DNA of 41,288 bases from a virus: IMG/VR virus record IMGVR_UViG_3300032081_000176, positions 1-41,288 of that record; one strand, written 5' to 3'. The translations under genes and the position numbers were made by a program. The notes beneath the pieces are model-generated. The model was not told where the DNA came from, did no database searches, and saw nothing but the letters and a program-made list of their open reading frames with translations. This document shows positions 4,535 through 35,535 of the stretch, one piece after another (position 1 is the first letter of the stretch; every line of letters begins with the position of its first letter).

Positions 4535-5443
4535 ATGGCTATATCACGAAATCAACTAGTAAAAGAACTAGAGCCAGGATTGAATGCTTTATTCGGCCTG
4601 GAATACAAACAGTATGAAAATCAGTCAGCTGAAATTTATACTACTGAGTCATCTGACAGAGCTTTTGAAGAAGAAGTAATGTTAAGTGGATTCGCTCAAG
4701 CACAAGTAAAACCAGAAGGTTCAGGTGTTACATACGATAACGCTCAAGAAACTTTCACAGCTAGATACACTAACGAAACAATTGCGTTAGCGTTTGCTAT
4801 CACTGAGGAAGCTATTGAAGATAATTTGTATGACAGACTTGCTTCTAGATATACAAAAGCTTTAGCAAGATCTATGGCTCAAACTAAACAAGTAAAAGCA
4901 GTTAACCCACTAAATAATGGAATGCCTGGCGGTACTTTCACTTCTGGTGATGGTGTAACTCTTTTCAACACAGCTCACCCAACACTTGCTGGAACTTTCA
5001 GTAACACGTTGGCAACTGCTGCTGACTTAAACGAAACTTCATTAGAACAATCAATGATTGACATTGCTGGACTTACTGATGAAAGAGGTTTAAAGATTGC
5101 TGCAAAAGCTGTTAAGATGATCATCCCATCTGCACTACAATTCACAGCTGAAAGACTTATGGCTTCTGCTGGTAGAGTTGGAACTGCTGATAATGATATC
5201 AACGCAATCAGATCTATGGGGATGATTCCTCAAGGTTACTCTGTTAATAATTTCTTAACAGACACTGATGCGTTTATGATTATCACAGACGTGCCTAATG
5301 GTATGAAACATTTCGAAAGATCTCCATTGACTACTAAAATGGAAGGTGACTTCGATACTGGTAATGTTAGATACAAAGCTAGAGAAAGATACGTATTTGG
5401 TGTATCTGACCCTAGAGGTATCTTTGGTTCTCCAGGAGCTTAA
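4535..5443 (+). CDS. Major capsid protein, Mu gpT-like family
   Basis: A 302-residue protein. It contains the block ESSDRAFEEEVMLSGF, followed by a TNETIALAFAITEEAIEDN region and YTKALARSMAQTKQ, and near the end ITDVPNGMKHFERSPL and ARERYVFGVSDPRG. This is the pattern of marine-phage major head subunits annotated as Mu gpT-like and expected to adopt the HK97 fold. The length (about 300 residues) is normal for the family. No N-terminal delta-domain is visible, in keeping with the separate scaffold gene upstream. AAGGAG precedes the ATG and a strong hairpin follows the stop. Confidence 0.88.
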   Translation: MAISRNQLVKELEPGLNALFGLEYKQYENQSAEIYTTESSDRAFEEEVMLSGFAQAQVKPEGSGVTYDNAQETFTARYTNETIALAFAITEEAIEDNLYDRLASRYTKALARSMAQTKQVKAVNPLNNGMPGGTFTSGDGVTLFNTAHPTLAGTFSNTLATAADLNETSLEQSMIDIAGLTDERGLKIAAKAVKMIIPSALQFTAERLMASAGRVGTADNDINAIRSMGMIPQGYSVNNFLTDTDAFMIITDVPNGMKHFERSPLTTKMEGDFDTGNVRYKARERYVFGVSDPRGIFGSPGA

Positions 5444-5455
5444 TACTTCATTTTT

Positions 5456-5480
5456 TGTGGCGGGACATAGTCTCGCCACA
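5456..5480 (+). terminator. Ten-base-pair hairpin after the capsid gene
   Basis: Arms 5456-5465 (TGTGGCGGGA) and 5471-5480 (TCTCGCCACA) pair over ten positions with one G-U pair and a five-base loop (CATAG), 13 bases after the capsid stop. Only TTT follows, so termination would be partial; such a hairpin may also protect the 3' end of capsid mRNA. Confidence 0.6.
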
Positions 5481-6056: not shown

Positions 6057-6875
6057 ATGACAACACATTTTAAAAATGGAGTAACTAACGTAGTAGGAAA
6101 AGATGGAGGTTCTTCTGTATTTAGTGGAATCAAACAACCCCTTATTACAGGTGGATACGAACAAGAACAAGCATATCAAAACGACTGGCAGATTTACAAT
6201 GCAAGTGATTGGACAGCTACATCAACTGGTGGATCTGACTTTCAACTAGCAGAATATGCTGGTGGATGGTTAAGACAAGGAGATAATGCTCCTGCCGCTG
6301 GTGAGATTCAAGGTATTGCAGGACCAGAAGTTTGGCAATACAATCAAAATCAAAAATGGTGGTTTGAAACTAGCATTGCAATCACTGACGTAAGTGAATT
6401 AAATACTTGGGTAGGATTTGCTCAAGATGGTTATGCTGATTCTGATACTTTACCAACTGATGGTATTGGATTCTCTCACCTACAAGATACAACTACAATA
6501 CAATTCATTTCTAGAAAAAATGGAGCAGGTGTATCTTTTGATATGTTAGACACAGCTGGTGGATCTACTTTCACTATGTTAGATTCTACTATCGCTACAC
6601 AAACAGCTACAGTACAGGCAATCCCAGCTAACTCAGTTAGACTAGGATTCCAATACCAACCAGCTGGAAGTGAAGTAGGTGTTACTGCGAACCAATTTAA
6701 ATTATATTTAAATGGTAATCCAATAGGAACTCAAGCGGCTACGACTGTGCCGGATGATATTGCATTAGAAATGAATATCATGTGTGCACATAAAGGAACA
6801 GTTGCTAATCACTTAGTAGTTGACTACTTTAATACGTTCCAATCTAGAGTGGCTGGAACAGGCGTAAGCGCGTAA
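6057..6875 (+). CDS. Lectin-like / jelly-roll virion protein
   Basis: A 272-residue protein rich in Gly, Thr and aromatic residues with predicted beta structure throughout. The alternating pattern (WWFETSIAITDVSELNTWVGFAQ, then GIGFSHL, then VRLGFQYQ and NQFKLYLNG) is what concanavalin-like lectin sandwiches show, with a late FKLYLNGN strand and an EMNIMCAH strand. It sits behind the AGGAGG site and ahead of a GC-rich hairpin. I read it as a surface decoration or sugar-binding capsid protein; the lectin reading is by pattern, not by a defined motif. Confidence 0.6.
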   Translation: MTTHFKNGVTNVVGKDGGSSVFSGIKQPLITGGYEQEQAYQNDWQIYNASDWTATSTGGSDFQLAEYAGGWLRQGDNAPAAGEIQGIAGPEVWQYNQNQKWWFETSIAITDVSELNTWVGFAQDGYADSDTLPTDGIGFSHLQDTTTIQFISRKNGAGVSFDMLDTAGGSTFTMLDSTIATQTATVQAIPANSVRLGFQYQPAGSEVGVTANQFKLYLNGNPIGTQAATTVPDDIALEMNIMCAHKGTVANHLVVDYFNTFQSRVAGTGVSA

Positions 6876-6888
6876 TACAAATAATTAG

Positions 6889-6908
6889 TGTGGGCCTCCG
6901 GGCCCACA
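6889..6908 (+). terminator. GC-rich hairpin with TCCG loop
   Basis: Perfect eight-base-pair stem, TGTGGGCC (6889-6896) and GGCCCACA (6901-6908), with a four-base TCCG loop, 13 bases after the 272-aa gene. No T-run follows (TAAAATAT), so it may be an mRNA-stability element or weak terminator. It is the third such hairpin in the head block. Confidence 0.55.
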
Positions 6909-11199: not shown

Positions 11200-14100
11200 A
11201 TGGCATCAACTTATACACCTCTTGGCGTAGAACTAATGGCTACCGGCGAAAACGCTGGGACTTGGGGTACAAAGACTAATACAAACTTACAAATATTTGA
11301 ACAAATTTCTGGTGGTTACTTAGAAGTAGCTATTGGAGGCGGTGCAGGAACTACGACTCTTACAGAAAGTGATGGTGCTACAGGTTCAGCAGTTGCTACA
11401 AGAATTTTAAAATTTACAGGAACAATTACTGGTAACAGAATTGTAACTATGCCGGTTGGCGTAGAAAATTTTTACATAATTAATAACAATACTTCCGGTG
11501 CTTACACAGTACAATTAAAAGCGGCTTCCGGTTCAGGGGCCACGGTTACTTGGGCAACTGATGATAAAGGTTGGAAGTTTGTTTACTTTGATGGCGTTGC
11601 AACTAACACAGGTGTTTTTGCTATTGGTCAAGATTTAAGTGATTTAGTTGTTAACGATCTAACTGTTAACGGCGAACTTCAAGCATTAGGCACAATCAAA
11701 CTAGATGGTAATTATCCTACAGGAACAGATAACGTAGCATTAGGTGACCAAGCATTATCAAGTGGAAGTTTATCTGGTGCTAGCAATACAGCTGTAGGTT
11801 CTCTATCTTTGCTTTCAAATACATCAGGTGCAGATAACACAGCAATGGGTTTATGCTCATTAAGATTAAATACTACAGGTGGTCAAAATACTGCTATCGG
11901 TAGAAAAGCCATGAGTAATAATATTTCAGGTGCTAATAATACTGCTATTGGTAGACAGGCAATGGTTGCAAATACTACAGCATCAAACAATACAGCAGTC
12001 GGAGCACAAGCTTTAGAGAATAACACAACAGGAACTAAAAATACAGCAGTTGGTATGAGTTCTTTAACAGCGAACACAGAGGGTTCTCAAAATGTATCCT
12101 TAGGTTCTTGTTCTATGCTTGCTAACACAACAGGTTCAAACAATACAGCAATTGGTCATATAGCTTTGTGTGCTAACACAACAGGTACTTGTAACGTTGC
12201 TATAGGTAGAGATTCTTTAGATAGTAATACGACAGGTTCATCTAATATTGGTATTGGTACAGATGCTTTACAAGGTAATACAACAGCTAGTAATAACATA
12301 GCAATTGGAGATGATTCTCAAAAAACTACTAGTACAGGTTGTTGTAATGTATCTATAGGTACTGCTTCTTTGTGTACAAACTCAACAGGAGATAATAATA
12401 CGGCTGTTGGTCCATTAGCTTTATCGGCTAATACAACAGCAGATAACAATACAGCAGTTGGTACTTCAGCTTTAGCAGCTAACACAACAGGTGCATGTAA
12501 TACAGCAGTAGGAAAACAAGCATTATCAAGCAACACCACAGCATCACAAAACACAGCAATAGGTTTTTGTTCAGGGTTCAGCACTACGACAGGTAATTGT
12601 AATACCTCTGTTGGAAGTCAAACTTTAAGAGATAATACAACAGGTTATTGTAATTCTGCATTTGGTTGTGGCTCTATGGCAAATAATGAAACAGGTCATT
12701 GCAATACAGGTTTAGGCATTAGAACGTTAGTAACAAATACAACAGGTTGTTGCAATACAGCTGTTGGAACTGATGCTCTATTGTTAAACACAACAGGTAA
12801 TAATAATACAGCAGTGGGATTAAGTGCTTTAACAACCAACACAACAGCAAGTAACAATGTAGCAGTTGGTTTTAATTCTTTACGTGCTAACACAACAGGT
12901 GCTTCTAGTGTAGCAGTTGGTAATAATGCTTTATTTGCTAACACAACAGCAAATAACAATGTAGCAATAGGTATGTGTGCTATGCATGCAACTACAACAG
13001 GAGCAAACAACACAGCAGTAGGATTTTCAGCACTTGATACTAATACAACAGGTTGTGAAAATGTTGCAGTTGGTAGAGATACTATGTTTACAAGTACAAC
13101 AGGTTGTCGAAGTGTAGCAGTAGGTTACAGAGCATTAAAAGCTAACACAACAGCAGATAATAACGTAGCAGTAGGTTATCAATCTTTATGTGCTAATACG
13201 ACAGGAGAAGTTAATACAGCTGTTGGTTCTTGTTCTATGAAAACAAACACCACAGGTTTTGGAAACACAGCTCTTGGTAAAAATTCATTATACACAAACA
13301 ATGGTAATAATAACACTGCTGTTGGACATGAGGCATTGGAACTAAATACTTCAGGTGATGGAAATGTAGCAGTAGGGAGACAAGCATTAGAAGCTAACAC
13401 AACAGCAGACAATAATACAGGAGTAGGTTCTTTTGCTTTATGTAAAAACACAGAAGGTTTTTCTAATACTGCAGTTGGTCATTGTGCTATATTTACTAAT
13501 ACTACTGGAGATAAAAATACTGGAGTAGGTGTTGGTGCATTATTAGTTTCTACCACAGCATCTAGCAACACAGCAGTTGGTTACCTTTCTTTAGCAGCTA
13601 ACACAACAGCTATTGATAATACAGCAGTTGGATCTAGTGCTGTAACAAGTAACACAACAGGTGGTAGAAATGTAGGAGTAGGTACGTTTGCTCTATATAC
13701 AAATACAACAGGTTGTTGCATTGTAGCTGTTGGAAGACAAGCATTATATTACAGCACAACAGCATCTAGCAACACAGCAGTTGGTAATAATGCTTTATTT
13801 ACTAATACAACAGGAACACAAAACGTAGCAGTAGGAAGTGGTGCTTTAGATGTTACTACAACAGGTAGTGAAAATGTTGCAGTAGGTCACTCAGCTTTAG
13901 GTGCAAACACAACAGGTTATAATAATAGTGCAGTAGGTAGATGTAGTTTAGCAAGTAGCTCAACAGGATTTGGTAATTCAGCATTAGGTTTAAATGCTGG
14001 ATTTGATGTAACAACAGGAGATAATAATGTTTTATTAGGACATAATGCTGGTCGTTCATCTTCTCCTTTTCAAGTAACATCTGAAGATGGTAGAATGGTT

Positions 14101-14472
14101 TTAGGAAATAATACTATTACTAATGCTTATATTAAAGTTGCACTTACAGTTACTTCTGACCAAAGAGATAAAACTAATTTTGGTATAGTTCCACATGGGT
14201 TAGATTTTGTTAATAAATTAGAACCTGTTTCATTTCAATTTAAAAAATCAAGAGAAGATGACACTCCTATTGGTTTTAAAAAATATGGATTTAAAGCACA
14301 GGATATTCTTGAACTTGAGGGTGATAATAATGTTATTATTGATAATGAAAAACCAGAACTATTAAAAATGACTAATTCTCATTTAATCCCAGTATTAGTC
14401 AATGCAATAAAAGAATTATCAGAAACAAATAAAGACTTGAAATCTAGAATAAAAGAGTTAGAAGATAAGTAA
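11200..14472 (+). CDS. Tail fibre with 17-residue repeats and S74 chaperone domain
   Basis: A 1090-residue protein. Residues 1-176 are an attachment region beginning ASTYTPLGVELMATGENAGTWGTKTN, a common opening in marine-phage fibres. Residues about 177-951 are about 45 copies of a 17-residue unit with consensus NNTAVGxxALxxNTTGx, expected to stack as a trimeric beta-roll or helix as in YadA-type heads. Residues about 980-1090 are an S74 intramolecular chaperone (SDQRDK at 986-991, the usual SDxRxK, then a helical ending); in this family the domain drives trimer folding and cuts itself off just before the Ser. AGGAGA precedes the ATG. The fibre most likely binds the host receptor. Confidence 0.85.
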   Translation: MASTYTPLGVELMATGENAGTWGTKTNTNLQIFEQISGGYLEVAIGGGAGTTTLTESDGATGSAVATRILKFTGTITGNRIVTMPVGVENFYIINNNTSGAYTVQLKAASGSGATVTWATDDKGWKFVYFDGVATNTGVFAIGQDLSDLVVNDLTVNGELQALGTIKLDGNYPTGTDNVALGDQALSSGSLSGASNTAVGSLSLLSNTSGADNTAMGLCSLRLNTTGGQNTAIGRKAMSNNISGANNTAIGRQAMVANTTASNNTAVGAQALENNTTGTKNTAVGMSSLTANTEGSQNVSLGSCSMLANTTGSNNTAIGHIALCANTTGTCNVAIGRDSLDSNTTGSSNIGIGTDALQGNTTASNNIAIGDDSQKTTSTGCCNVSIGTASLCTNSTGDNNTAVGPLALSANTTADNNTAVGTSALAANTTGACNTAVGKQALSSNTTASQNTAIGFCSGFSTTTGNCNTSVGSQTLRDNTTGYCNSAFGCGSMANNETGHCNTGLGIRTLVTNTTGCCNTAVGTDALLLNTTGNNNTAVGLSALTTNTTASNNVAVGFNSLRANTTGASSVAVGNNALFANTTANNNVAIGMCAMHATTTGANNTAVGFSALDTNTTGCENVAVGRDTMFTSTTGCRSVAVGYRALKANTTADNNVAVGYQSLCANTTGEVNTAVGSCSMKTNTTGFGNTALGKNSLYTNNGNNNTAVGHEALELNTSGDGNVAVGRQALEANTTADNNTGVGSFALCKNTEGFSNTAVGHCAIFTNTTGDKNTGVGVGALLVSTTASSNTAVGYLSLAANTTAIDNTAVGSSAVTSNTTGGRNVGVGTFALYTNTTGCCIVAVGRQALYYSTTASSNTAVGNNALFTNTTGTQNVAVGSGALDVTTTGSENVAVGHSALGANTTGYNNSAVGRCSLASSSTGFGNSALGLNAGFDVTTGDNNVLLGHNAGRSSSPFQVTSEDGRMVLGNNTITNAYIKVALTVTSDQRDKTNFGIVPHGLDFVNKLEPVSFQFKKSREDDTPIGFKKYGFKAQDILELEGDNNVIIDNEKPELLKMTNSHLIPVLVNAIKELSETNKDLKSRIKELEDK
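11728..14052 (+). repeat. 51-bp coding repeat array in the fibre gene
   Basis: About 45 units of 51 bases encode the 17-residue repeat. All stay in register except for a first unit of 18 residues and one irregular unit near 13300. DNA identity between units is low, while the AVG, NTT and TG positions are retained, so selection is at the protein level. The same periodicity produces long open frames on the opposite strand. Confidence 0.9.
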
Positions 14473-30931: not shown

Positions 30932-31690
30932 ATGAATGAAGTAACAGAAAAAAAGTCTGCTCCTCTTCCAACAAATATGTTTGAAGAAGACGCAGCAAAA
31001 GGTTTAGGAGATATAGGTCAACAAGATCTTGCCTTACCTTTTCTTAAAATCCTAGGACAATTATCACCAGAAGTAAATAAGCGGGATGGTAAATATGTTG
31101 AAGGAGCAGAACCTGGAATGATTTTCAATTCAGTAACCGGTGATTTATACGATGGAGTAAAAGGCATAGATGTCATTCCTGCATTTTATAAATTAGAGTA
31201 TGTTGAATGGAAAGATAGAGGAGAAGGACCTGGTGCACCAGTAGCGGTGTATGATTCTTCGTCTGATATTATGTCAACAACAAAACCAGATGCTAACTAC
31301 AAAGATAGATTACCTAATGGTAATTATATTGAGAAGACTGCATCACATTTTGTTATCATAACAGGGGACAGTCCAACGACTGCGTTGATTTCTATGAAAT
31401 CTACTCAATTAAAAATTAGTAGAAAATGGAATTCGATGATGTCTGGCATAAAACTAAAAGGTAAAAACGGTTTATATACACCGGCATCTTTTAGCCACAT
31501 TTACAAATTAAAGACTACTCAAATGTCTAACGACAAAGGCACTTGGTTTGGTTGGGAAGTTAGTAAAGTTGGTCCAATATCTGAGGCAAGTACTTATCAG
31601 CAAGCTAAAGCATTTTCAGAGAGTATCTCTAAAGGTGCAATAAAAGCAAAGCATGGTGAGGACAAACCAAAAGAAAGCAGCATTATATAA
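30932..31690 (+). CDS. Possible single-stranded DNA-binding protein
   Basis: A 252-residue protein. The disordered N-terminus (KKSAPLPTNMFEEDAAKGLG) leads to DLALPFLKILGQLSPEV, GMIFNSVTGDLYDG, IDVIPAFYKLEYVEWKDRG, a variable loop, FVIITGDSPTTALISMKST, and HIYKLKTTQMSNDKGTWFGW before a charged C-terminal tail (SKGAIKAKHGEDKPKE). A central beta-rich core with Trp/Tyr and an acidic-basic tail resembles phage single-stranded DNA-binding proteins, and the location among replication genes fits. I see no decisive motif, so the call is tentative. The stop (TAA 31688-31690) is followed by an in-frame 18-codon open stretch inside a GC-rich hairpin region. Confidence 0.45.
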   Translation: MNEVTEKKSAPLPTNMFEEDAAKGLGDIGQQDLALPFLKILGQLSPEVNKRDGKYVEGAEPGMIFNSVTGDLYDGVKGIDVIPAFYKLEYVEWKDRGEGPGAPVAVYDSSSDIMSTTKPDANYKDRLPNGNYIEKTASHFVIITGDSPTTALISMKSTQLKISRKWNSMMSGIKLKGKNGLYTPASFSHIYKLKTTQMSNDKGTWFGWEVSKVGPISEASTYQQAKAFSESISKGAIKAKHGEDKPKESSII

Positions 31691-31747
31691 TCCCTTCGGG
31701 GTATGTGCACAGCGTGGGCCAATCGGGAGACTGAGTGGCCTGCGTAG
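31691..31747 (+). promoter_or_regulatory. GC-rich structured leader with possible 14-residue peptide
   Basis: The 68-base gap before the primase is about 57% G+C, far above the rest. It contains CCC-TTCG-GGG (31692-31701) and a nine-base-pair stem (31713-31721 with 31736-31744, two G-U/U-G pairs, 14-base loop). ATG 31703 opens a short frame (MCTAWANRETEWPA) ending at TAG 31745-31747; read from 31691 it is in frame with the preceding gene, so it could also be a stop-readthrough extension. This could be a leader peptide, a readthrough signal, or a structured RNA. Which is true is undecided. Confidence 0.4.
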
Positions 31748-31758
31748 ACAGGATAATT

Positions 31759-33384
31759 ATGCAAGAATTTATAAAGATATTTAATGGCTATCGGCATGCA
31801 TATGGAATTGCAGACTGGACTAACGCTGTCATTGATCCGGAGAATGGTAAAAAGAAACCTGTGTACAGGTGGAACTATGAAGAATTTACAGACACAATAT
31901 ATCAAGAACATTTAAAAGGAAACATATCGGTTGGCATACAACCTACTAATGAGAAAGGTAGCGCTATCTTTGGTGTTATAGATGTCGACCCAAAACAATA
32001 TGAAGACTTCGATAAAAAATTTTATTTAGAAACTATACAACAATACAAACTACCCTTAGTACCGGTAGAGTCTAAGAGTGGTGGGTTACATTTATATTTA
32101 TTTATGAATGAGTTTGTACAATCAACAGTCATTGTATCATTCTTAAGTAATCTTTTACCTTTATTTAATCTTAAACCAGACTGTGAAATATTTCCAAAGC
32201 AAACACAGCTAACAAAGGATCCGGAAACAGGGATCTTGAAACCGGGACAATTTATAAACCTACCTTACTATGGCGGAGAAAGAAAAGCTGTTAATATTGA
32301 TGGTACGTTCTTTACACTAGAACAATTTGTACAAGTTGTTGATGCAAACATAACCACAAAAGATGAATTAAAAACCATTACAGAAGACATGGAAAAACAA
32401 TCTATGGAAGGTGTAGATGAAGATTTTTTAGATGGACCGCCTTGTCTTGCTTTGATTTCTAAGATATCTAACCAGGAAACTTTTGATGGTAAGGATAGAT
32501 TTATGTATAATTATCATGTGTTTGTGAAGATGAAGTATGCAGATAACTGGGAACAAAAAGTAAAGAATGCACCCGTAAAATATTTTGCAAGAGAACACGC
32601 TAATGCGTGGGATGATAATAAATTAAAACAAAAAACAAGGTCATGGAACAGATCAGAAAAAGGTTATACTTGTAATCAAAGTCCTATAAGTGATTTTTGT
32701 AAAAAAGGTATTTGTGTTAAAAAGAAGTTTGGAATACTAGCAGGATCAAAAGGACAGTATCCTGTATTAACAAACTTAAGAAAGATAGACATAGAACCAG
32801 ATCCGGAATATGAATTTGATGTAACTAAACCAGATGGTATTGGTAAAGCAACTGTACACTGCAGAACTATTGAGCATGTAACAGACCAACGTAAACGTAG
32901 AAACTCGATAGCAAAAGCTGCAGGGTTTCCACCACCAATTATAAAAGCACCAGAAGATCAAACAGTATTAGAAGCATTATTCCAAACACAGAAAGTAATT
33001 AACCCACCAGTCGGTACATCACCAAAAGAAAAACTACATGATGTATTACATGCAAAAATAAATGGACCTAAAGCTATGAACGATGCATCATTTAAATCTG
33101 GTACAGTATTAATAGAAGATGGTTATGCATACTTTAAGTTTGATAAATTTTACGACAAATTAAAATCTAAAAACTGGAAACATGGTGAAGACAAGACAGG
33201 TGTTATGATGAAGACTAACTACAAGAGTTGTGACATAGATTTCTTAGATCAAAAAAGATTTCCAACAAAAGAAAAAGGTAAATATAATACACCTACTAAG
33301 AATGTGGTGTCAATAAACATAGAACAATTTGAAGATGTTAAAATTAATCACACTAAACTAAAACACAACACGGAGATAATGTAA
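31759..33384 (+). CDS. Archaeo-eukaryotic-type primase (AEP, TOTE-like)
   Basis: A 541-residue protein. I start at ATG 31759 (AGGATAATT upstream) because an upstream in-frame start lacks a ribosome site and reads through the structured leader. The catalytic layout is seen: YGIAD and SVGIQPT, then VIDVD (Asp75, Asp77), SGGLH (107-111), FPKQ (145-148) and GQFINLPYY (163-171), as in AEP primases of the TOTE group, which make primers or extend DNA. Residues about 230-400 are a less clear helical part with a KKGICVKKKFG segment and several Cys. The C-terminus is Lys-rich. It heads the replication operon. Confidence 0.75.
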   Translation: MQEFIKIFNGYRHAYGIADWTNAVIDPENGKKKPVYRWNYEEFTDTIYQEHLKGNISVGIQPTNEKGSAIFGVIDVDPKQYEDFDKKFYLETIQQYKLPLVPVESKSGGLHLYLFMNEFVQSTVIVSFLSNLLPLFNLKPDCEIFPKQTQLTKDPETGILKPGQFINLPYYGGERKAVNIDGTFFTLEQFVQVVDANITTKDELKTITEDMEKQSMEGVDEDFLDGPPCLALISKISNQETFDGKDRFMYNYHVFVKMKYADNWEQKVKNAPVKYFAREHANAWDDNKLKQKTRSWNRSEKGYTCNQSPISDFCKKGICVKKKFGILAGSKGQYPVLTNLRKIDIEPDPEYEFDVTKPDGIGKATVHCRTIEHVTDQRKRRNSIAKAAGFPPPIIKAPEDQTVLEALFQTQKVINPPVGTSPKEKLHDVLHAKINGPKAMNDASFKSGTVLIEDGYAYFKFDKFYDKLKSKNWKHGEDKTGVMMKTNYKSCDIDFLDQKRFPTKEKGKYNTPTKNVVSINIEQFEDVKINHTKLKHNTEIM

Positions 33385-34055: not shown

Positions 34056-35535
34056 AAAAATATTAGGTCCTCCAGGTACCGGTAAAACAACTAGACTTAT
34101 TAAGTATGTAAAAACATTTGTTAAACTAGGTACACCTATTGACAAGATTGGTTACTTTGCATTTACCACTAAAGCAGCAGATGAAGCAGTAGATAGAATG
34201 TTAGATGCATATCCTAAACTACAGAAAAAAAATTTAAAATATTTTAGAACTTTACATTCACTAGCATTTAAAAGACTTGGATTAAAAAAATCTCAAGTCA
34301 TGCAAGAGGAGCATTACGAAGATATTGGTAGACAGCTTGGAATAGAAGTTACAGTTTACTCTAACGGTCAGGAAAAAACTGGGTTTGTAGATTCTGACAG
34401 TGAGTATTTTAACATAATCAATGCAGCAAGAATTAAAAATTTAACTATTGAAGAAGAGTACAACACGGACATGTACTCAGAAGACATAGATAAACATATG
34501 TTGCAGATACTAAAAGACGAAGTAGATAATTATAAGTATTCTTACAAACTCGTAGACTTCACTGACATGATTGAAAAATTTAATGTGGCAGAATTGTGTC
34601 CGAAATATGATGTAATATTTGTAGATGAAGCGCAGGATTTATCGCCAATACAGTGGAAAATGTACGATATACTTAAGAAAAACTCTAGACATGTTATCTT
34701 AGCCGGTGATGATGATCAAGCTATTTATGGTTGGGCTGGTGCAGATGTGCAAAGGTTTCAAGAGGAGCCGGCAAAAGACATAGTCTTGCCACAATCTTAC
34801 AGGGTGCCTCAAGCAGTGCAACAGATCGCTGATCAAATATTAAATCGTATACCTGATGATAGAAGAATTAAAAAACAATGGGCACCGCGTCCGGAAACAG
34901 GGAACGTGGATCATATAACATCTATAGAAGATGCACCACTACATCAAAGTGACTGGTTAATATTAGCTAGAACTAATGACAAATTAATTAAATTAAAATC
35001 TATCTTAAGGGACATGCCTATTTACTTTGAAATAAAGGGTAGGAAAAGTTATAAAACAAGATTGTATACAGCAATAAAAAATTACACAAGATGGACTAAG
35101 GGGGACAAACTTTCTTTGTCTGAATGTAAAGATTTGTTTGAATATTTAGAACTAGATCAAGAGTTAAAAGAAGAAAGAATGTATGACTTGCAAGAGTTTG
35201 GTTATAAAACTACTGATGAGTGGTACGAAGTTTTTAAATCTGATCCAGAAGAATGTTTATACATTAGAGAAATGTTAAGGTCGGGAGAAAAACTAGATAG
35301 TCCAGCACGAGTTAAGTTATCAACAATACATGCAGCCAAAGGTGGTGAAGCTACAAATGTTTTAATTATTTTAGATAACACAAAAAAGATAAGAGAGGCC
35401 CTTGACAAAAGTGAAGACAAGCAAGATGAAGAACACAGAGTTTGGTATGTAGGAGTTACACGTACAAAACAAAATTTATTTATAATGACAGCTAAACAGG
35501 AGGACAGAGGTTATGACATCGAAAGCATTACATAA
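34045..35535 (+). CDS. UvrD/Rep-like SF1 helicase
   Basis: A 496-residue protein. ATG 34045 has AAGGAGG (34035-34041) just upstream, which decides the start over ATG 34003. Motifs: Walker A GPPGTGKT (8-15), motif Ia region FAFTTKAADEAVDRM (38-52), Walker B DEAQD (194-198), motif III GDDDQAIYGWAGA (221-233), QSYR (250-253), STIHAAKG (about 425) and WYVGVTR (about 466). These are the seven SF1A helicase motifs. It is shorter than bacterial UvrD (about 720) because the inserted subdomains are small, as in phage Dda-type proteins. It may be the main replication helicase here since no DnaB-type gene is seen. Confidence 0.88.
   Translation: MSVRKILGPPGTGKTTRLIKYVKTFVKLGTPIDKIGYFAFTTKAADEAVDRMLDAYPKLQKKNLKYFRTLHSLAFKRLGLKKSQVMQEEHYEDIGRQLGIEVTVYSNGQEKTGFVDSDSEYFNIINAARIKNLTIEEEYNTDMYSEDIDKHMLQILKDEVDNYKYSYKLVDFTDMIEKFNVAELCPKYDVIFVDEAQDLSPIQWKMYDILKKNSRHVILAGDDDQAIYGWAGADVQRFQEEPAKDIVLPQSYRVPQAVQQIADQILNRIPDDRRIKKQWAPRPETGNVDHITSIEDAPLHQSDWLILARTNDKLIKLKSILRDMPIYFEIKGRKSYKTRLYTAIKNYTRWTKGDKLSLSECKDLFEYLELDQELKEERMYDLQEFGYKTTDEWYEVFKSDPEECLYIREMLRSGEKLDSPARVKLSTIHAAKGGEATNVLIILDNTKKIREALDKSEDKQDEEHRVWYVGVTRTKQNLFIMTAKQEDRGYDIESIT

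Follow-up and report, generated by a model that had tools for sequence, protein, structure and literature searches.

A hairpin conserved by shape between the SSB-like and primase genes of pelagiphages, a candidate cis-acting RNA element

Introduction

Between an SSB-like gene and a primase gene of a viral DNA of 41,288 nucleotides (the whole stretch analysed, here termed the window) lies a short G+C-rich segment in which the frame of the upstream gene stays open beyond its stop codon. A preliminary description of this DNA offered three readings of the segment: readthrough of the stop codon, which would add a Trp-containing tail to the SSB-like protein; a short leader peptide controlling the primase; or a structured RNA in which the open frame is fortuitous. 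The question is which of these holds, and what such a segment might do. The comparison of homologous loci reported here shows that the segment, as judged by its covariation, folds as a sense-strand RNA that is conserved by shape, and that the peptide is not conserved.

The window is a virus record that carries head, lysis and replication genes, as revealed by Pfam and PHROG matches. Its capsid protein shares 83% identity with that of Pelagibacter phage HTVC027P and 75% with that of HTVC023P, its primase shares 40% identity with the HTVC027P primase, and a relative of its SSB-like protein (85% identity) is encoded on a contig of the Pelagibacteraceae genome record AG-422-I02. Together, these matches point to SAR11 as the likely host. 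SAR11 are the most abundant bacteria of the sea, and the HTVC023P-type pelagiphages that infect them are described as widespread. The window also encodes (11200-14472) a 1090-aa protein with many short NTAVG/NTTG-type repeats and a C-terminal end resembling a tail-fibre chaperone domain.

Results

Folding of the segment in the window

The features of the locus are collected in Table 1. The G+C content of the gap is 57%, as against 36% upstream, in agreement with the high G+C reported before. Behind the TAA the same frame does stay open for 18 codons (SLRGMCTAWANRETEWPA), and ATG 31703 is present. The TTCG hairpin described right behind the stop was also found (CCC-UUCG-GGG, 31692-31701), but it is weak, with 3-4 bp and about -2.8 kcal/mol. 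The later stem, previously counted as nine base pairs, is present with 10 bp including wobbles, 31712-31721 pairing with 31736-31745. Above this outer stem, hairpin 2 has an A.G mismatch, 4 bp and a GAGA tetraloop (31727-31730), and its apex carries a G.U wobble and a G-C closing pair. Hairpin 2 has a folding energy of -21.7 kcal/mol (z = -4.5), which none of 200 shuffles equalled, and is the most stable local fold in the whole window: among all stretches folded along the 41-kb sequence, the lowest energy was that of the 40-nt stretch at 31709 (z = -6.3). The two Trp codons of the open frame stem from the GUGGGCC/GGCCCAC pairing.

Table 1. Features of the SSB-like/primase locus (positions in the window)
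Feature	Position	Strand	Remarks
SSB-like gene (PF23977 Pam3_Gp34, phrog_2402)	30932..31690	+	Pfam E 1.8e-70, PHROG E 2.7e-67; stop TAA 31688-31690
Intergenic gap, 68 nt	31691-31758	+	Between SSB-like gene and AEP-TOTE primase gene
Hairpin 1, UCCC-UUC-GGGG or CCC-UUCG-GGG	31691..31702	+	Short stem-loop directly 3' of stop codon
Self-complementary linker TGTGCACA	31704..31711	+	
Hairpin 2, conserved element	31712..31745	+	Folding energy, covariance model, covariation
13-nt spacer before primase start	31746..31758	+	Weak Shine-Dalgarno-like AGGA
Primase gene (PF22548 AEP-TOTE, phrog_21866)	31759..33384	+	Pfam E 1.1e-12, PHROG E 4.6e-109

Collection of related loci

BLASTN of the DNA against named phages gave only one partial match, and relatives were therefore sought through the protein, which yielded loci with directly readable gaps. 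A DNA pattern derived from the hairpin of the window matched 79 further viral loci. The match adjoins a primase homologue in 78 of them, and it also lies 3' of an SSB-like gene where the locus is long enough; by our own estimate, about one chance match is expected in a collection of such size. The sole match outside the slot (L086), in a G+C-rich locus with no SSB or primase homologue nearby, was discarded. Three further protein scans led to 405 loci with both genes, which contain 227 distinct gaps.

A common architecture was observed in 188 of the 227 distinct gaps: a variable stem, a 3+3-nt internal loop, a G.U wobble, a G-C or C-G pair and a GAGA loop. The apical core was present in 350 of the 405 loci, and HTVC027P carries the element with a different stem, GGCGC/GCGCC. 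Most of the remaining gaps contain a plain strong hairpin (mean z -4.3), and about half have the GNRA loops GCAA, GUAA or GAAA. Many relatives have a counterpart of hairpin 1 with other letters (TTCTCTAAGAGAA, TTTAATCGATTAGTCGATTAAA and others), and in others it is absent. In the cultured phage HTVC023P the SSB-like and primase genes are 5 nt apart (locus L203, 1355-1361) and no hairpin is present; at least one lineage can therefore do without the element.

Two HTVC027P-like loci (L341 and L357) have UAGC in place of GAGA (GCUAGCGU), a non-GNRA exception within an otherwise intact apical module. In another locus (L161) the gap is 217 nt long, perhaps through an insertion beside the element, and the motif is still present (covariance model match at 6678-6709 on the minus strand of the locus, 40.5 bits). 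Close relatives of the phage gene were also found on contigs of metagenome-assembled genomes labelled as archaeal, Flavobacteriaceae or Woesebacteria (L456, L460, L461, L462 and L466), which are probably phage contigs that were binned wrongly.

Covariation of the stem and conservation of the apex

The stem has 7-10 bp, and its letters change freely among the 188 distinct gaps. It supports an apical module made of a 3x3 purine-rich internal loop, a near-invariant G.U wobble, a pair that swaps between G-C and C-G, and GAGA; in the window the internal loop is reduced to the A.G mismatch and two pairs. The wobble beside the closing pair was present in 186 of the 188 gaps, which is more than base pairing alone demands, and the GAGA tetraloop likewise in 186 of 188. 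The GNRA alternatives observed are GAGA, GCGA and GAAA in class A, and GCAA, GUAA and GAAA in the simpler hairpins.

The aligned rows were picked by a lenient stem score (3 of 9), which somewhat favours pairing, but not to the degree observed: in 76 distinct ungapped rows, 95.5% of the cells were paired, compared with 62.3% in shuffles and 29-44% in slid registers. Double-sided changes were detected in these rows at 10 of the 11 pairs. Across 127 distinct sequences, the seven core pairs of the stem comprised 845 Watson-Crick pairs, 44 G.U, no A.C and no other combination. That G.U is tolerated and A.C is absent over these 889 cells points to an RNA of the sense strand.

When the changes were placed on the tree of the SSB-like protein, the swaps between supported clades were compensated in 6/6, 2/2, 2/2, 3/3 and 3/3 cases at five stem pairs, that is, in all 16 purine/pyrimidine swaps. 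An independent-pairs test of the closing pair gave 9/9 compensated, a value that is partly circular because a complementary closing pair was a criterion for including rows; a direct search for gaps with the apical core and a mismatched closing pair found none. A covariance model built from 76 relatives matched the window at 31713-31744 with 31 bits, and a search for a second copy, both in the window and in HTVC027P, gave nothing beyond sub-threshold matches on the minus strand. Rfam 15 gave no match in the window at the gathering score, and at E up to 10 only two sub-threshold matches in 31500-31950, both off the hairpin. The comparison of homologous loci proposed in the preliminary description thus revealed compensatory changes, and this pair-by-pair covariation in hundreds of relatives supports the third of its readings, a structured RNA with a frame that is open by chance.

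The linker palindrome

Relatives often have other palindromes in place of the linker of the window (TCATGCATGA, GTTGCAAC, CTTGCAAG, TCCTAGGA, TTGTTATAACAA and TGTGTACACA). A palindrome of at least 6 nt was found in 72 of 95 distinct linkers, against 13.9 expected from shuffles, but a control stretch in the primase gene scored as high, owing to the shared ancestry of the related sequences. The kept self-complementarity could serve the formation of RNA dimers or the binding of a dimeric protein to DNA.

Hairpins in comparable slots

A hairpin that ranks within the top ~1% of local stretches by stability was found 3' of the SSB-like gene in 12 of 13 named phages, whether the next gene was a primase, a helicase or of unknown function. 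A stable hairpin behind the stop codon, whatever the downstream gene, is the pattern of a 3'-stabilising hairpin. The distant phages that carry one, and share only the SSB-like gene, are phages of Pseudomonas, Xanthomonas, Vibrio, Luteibacter, Alteromonas, Dinoroseobacter and cyanobacteria. T35, JSF39, FoX7 and ZP6 have a terminator-like hairpin with a T-run in this slot.

The window has a very stable hairpin without a T-run (5454-5478) directly 3' of the major capsid gene (4535-5443), and another (6888-6907) 3' of the gene at 6057-6875. HTVC027P shows the same pattern at 34957 and 36109, and the core of the capsid-slot hairpin is identical in both phages (GTGGCGGGACATAGTCTCGCCAC); homology between their second hairpin-bearing structural genes was not shown by comparison. 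In psg01, HTVC023P and DSL-LC04 the capsid slot is occupied by a T-run terminator. We infer that both slots, SSB-like and capsid, lie behind genes with products required in large amounts. Because the hairpins are kept whatever gene comes next, have T-runs in some phages and also occur in the capsid slot, they point to the upstream gene.

The C-terminal tip of the SSB-like protein is hydrophobic or aromatic: each of the 300 relatives counted ends in one of the residues I, F, V, Y, L and M. In this it resembles the C-terminal tip of SSB. A structure model of the protein (pLDDT 76) gave no Foldseek hit at E <= 0.001, and several of the top non-significant hits were OB-fold ssDNA-binding chains (MCM N-terminal domain, RPA, CST and PrgE). 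A sequence search of the PDB with the family gave no match.

Discussion

The reading that we favour, and to which we give an even chance, is that the hairpin is an intercistronic cis-acting RNA element of the pelagiphage replication operon that would make the expression of its flanking genes unequal. Once the operon transcript is cut or decays, hairpin 2, together with hairpin 1 where it is present, would protect the SSB-like cistron from exonucleases by capping its 3' end. The end of the stem, 6-16 nt before the primase AUG and in place of a strong Shine-Dalgarno sequence, would keep primase translation low. The SSB-like protein, required in bulk, would then outlive and outnumber the primase, required in few copies. 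The apical module (3x3 internal loop, G.U, S-S pair and GAGA) would be recognised by a specific binder of host or phage origin.

The distance from the stem to the ATG has a median of 12 nt and is 6-16 nt in most relatives. The Shine-Dalgarno energy of the primase gene has a median of -3.0 in relatives, while the genes of the window as a whole give -6.3, and the window primase ranks 30 of 42 genes by anti-SD pairing. The weak primase Shine-Dalgarno sequence could be a coincidence. Taken together with the hairpin slots, it favours an element that shields the end of the SSB-like message while damping primase expression. A generic 3' cap needs no GAGA/G.U/internal-loop module, and capping thus leaves the strongest conservation unexplained; the module is too well kept for a bare cap, and a specific binder probably recognises it.

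Intercistronic 3'-stabilising hairpins of the REP type are known from the puf and malEF operons. The element resembles them in being a stable stem-loop behind the stop of an abundantly needed operon gene, with stable tetraloops and no T-run, but it differs in that it is present in one copy per genome and in one slot, with a conserved apical module, rather than being repeated. A bolder reading, possible but already on the unlikely side, is that the hairpins form an undescribed phage RNA family, a protein-binding operator or a processing site, maybe dimerising through the changing palindrome beside it, which would couple the supply of SSB and primase in many of the abundant HTVC023P-type pelagiphages.

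While intercistronic hairpins as a kind are well known, the consensus reported here is undescribed. No mention of the element was found in the open-licence literature searched, which included the Pelagibacter structured-RNA and HTVC023P-type genome papers. The candidate structured RNAs of Pelagibacter (PMC2704228) are likewise marine and were found by covariation, but they are motifs of the host, and the text names no phage, primase or GNRA tetraloop. The HTVC027P transcriptome paper reports gene-expression clusters and deposited reads, and the passages of it that were examined do not mention the SSB-like/primase gap (PMC12753301). Few clear post-transcriptional controls are known in HTVC023P-type pelagiphages, and a cis-acting RNA that is absent from Rfam and retains its shape across hundreds of their genomes would be one of them. 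The element is present in cultured HTVC027P (host Pelagibacter HTCC1062), for which RNA-seq reads of the infection are public (BioProject PRJNA1253180), and the idea can therefore be tested now.

The apical module could also be a translational operator, where the SSB-like protein, the primase or a host RNA-binding protein would bind and block ribosomes at the primase start. An apex that is kept (G.U and GAGA, 186/188 each) on a stem whose letters change is typical of a recognised site, and in most relatives 6-16 nt separate the stem from the AUG. For gp32 of T4 and RB69 it is established that a phage Ssb controls its own synthesis through operators that have diverged, the T4 protein binding the leader of its own gene and repressing translation of its own mRNA (PMC535899). 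The gene 32 operator is similarly a structured RNA that is tied to the gene of a phage ssDNA-binding protein and diverges in sequence between phages, but the structure described here follows the SSB-like gene and precedes the primase gene, and its binder is only putative (PMC535899). In relatives the same slot holds plain GCAA, GUAA or GAAA hairpins or terminators without the apical module, and the same kind of hairpin is found 3' of the capsid gene, which argues against an operator and makes it, in our judgement, somewhat unlikely.

An attenuator, or a worn-down terminator, behind the SSB-like gene would lower transcription of the primase operon, and we regard it as doubtful. T7 T-phi, behind gene 10, is an example of an intrinsic (partial) terminator behind a phage capsid gene, and the terminators of related phages occupy the same slots as the hairpins: those of T35, JSF39, FoX7 and ZP6 behind the SSB-like gene, and those of psg01, HTVC023P and DSL-LC04 behind the capsid gene. 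Hairpin 2 differs from them in having no T-run, neither in the window (tail AGACAGGATAATT), where a scan of the + strand found no intrinsic terminator at this site, nor in most class A relatives, and the GAGA/G.U/internal-loop module is superfluous for a terminator.

That the element acts as DNA, as a cruciform or single-stranded hairpin serving as a replication origin or primase loading site, is very unlikely. The adjoining primase gene and the palindrome beside the hairpin would fit such a role. However, if both DNA strands mattered, 44 G.T against 0 A.C would not be expected in the core stem; GNRA and UUCG are RNA loops; and the hairpin is found 3' of the SSB-like gene even where the next gene is not a primase. 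An RNase III site of the T7 type, which has a long duplex of about 20 bp, was rejected, the stem here having only 7-10 bp plus 2-4 bp.

Neither peptide reading was borne out by the related loci: these differ in frame, length and start codon, and no clear purifying selection on the leader codons was detected. The lengths of the gaps are spread over the three frames (72/65/51), and the open stretch behind the stop varies from 0 to 24 codons. A frame is open across hairpin 2 in 51% of the related gaps, which are not independent sequences, versus 35% of shuffles, and a single open frame therefore means little.

Control of the primase by the leader peptide MCTAWANRETEWPA, starting at ATG 31703, is hardly credible. 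Its frame is open in the window and in near relatives, but in many relatives the start codon is absent or in another frame, most lack the frame or have it in a different register, and any ATG frame across hairpin 2 is found in only 43% of relatives, against 28% of shuffles. In the 18 distinct sequences that keep the 14-codon frame its pN/pS is 0.90, while in the same loci the final 60 codons of the SSB-like gene give 0.61, and the codons of the frame are variable over the internal loop and fixed over the stem and tetraloop. Readthrough can be dismissed almost entirely: against the 18 open codons in the window stand a tail whose length, frame and sequence are not kept among relatives and whose frame often closes at once, stops that are either TAA or TAG, the constant type of terminal residue of the SSB-like protein (300/300), and two loci (L079 and L080) with an immediate second stop.
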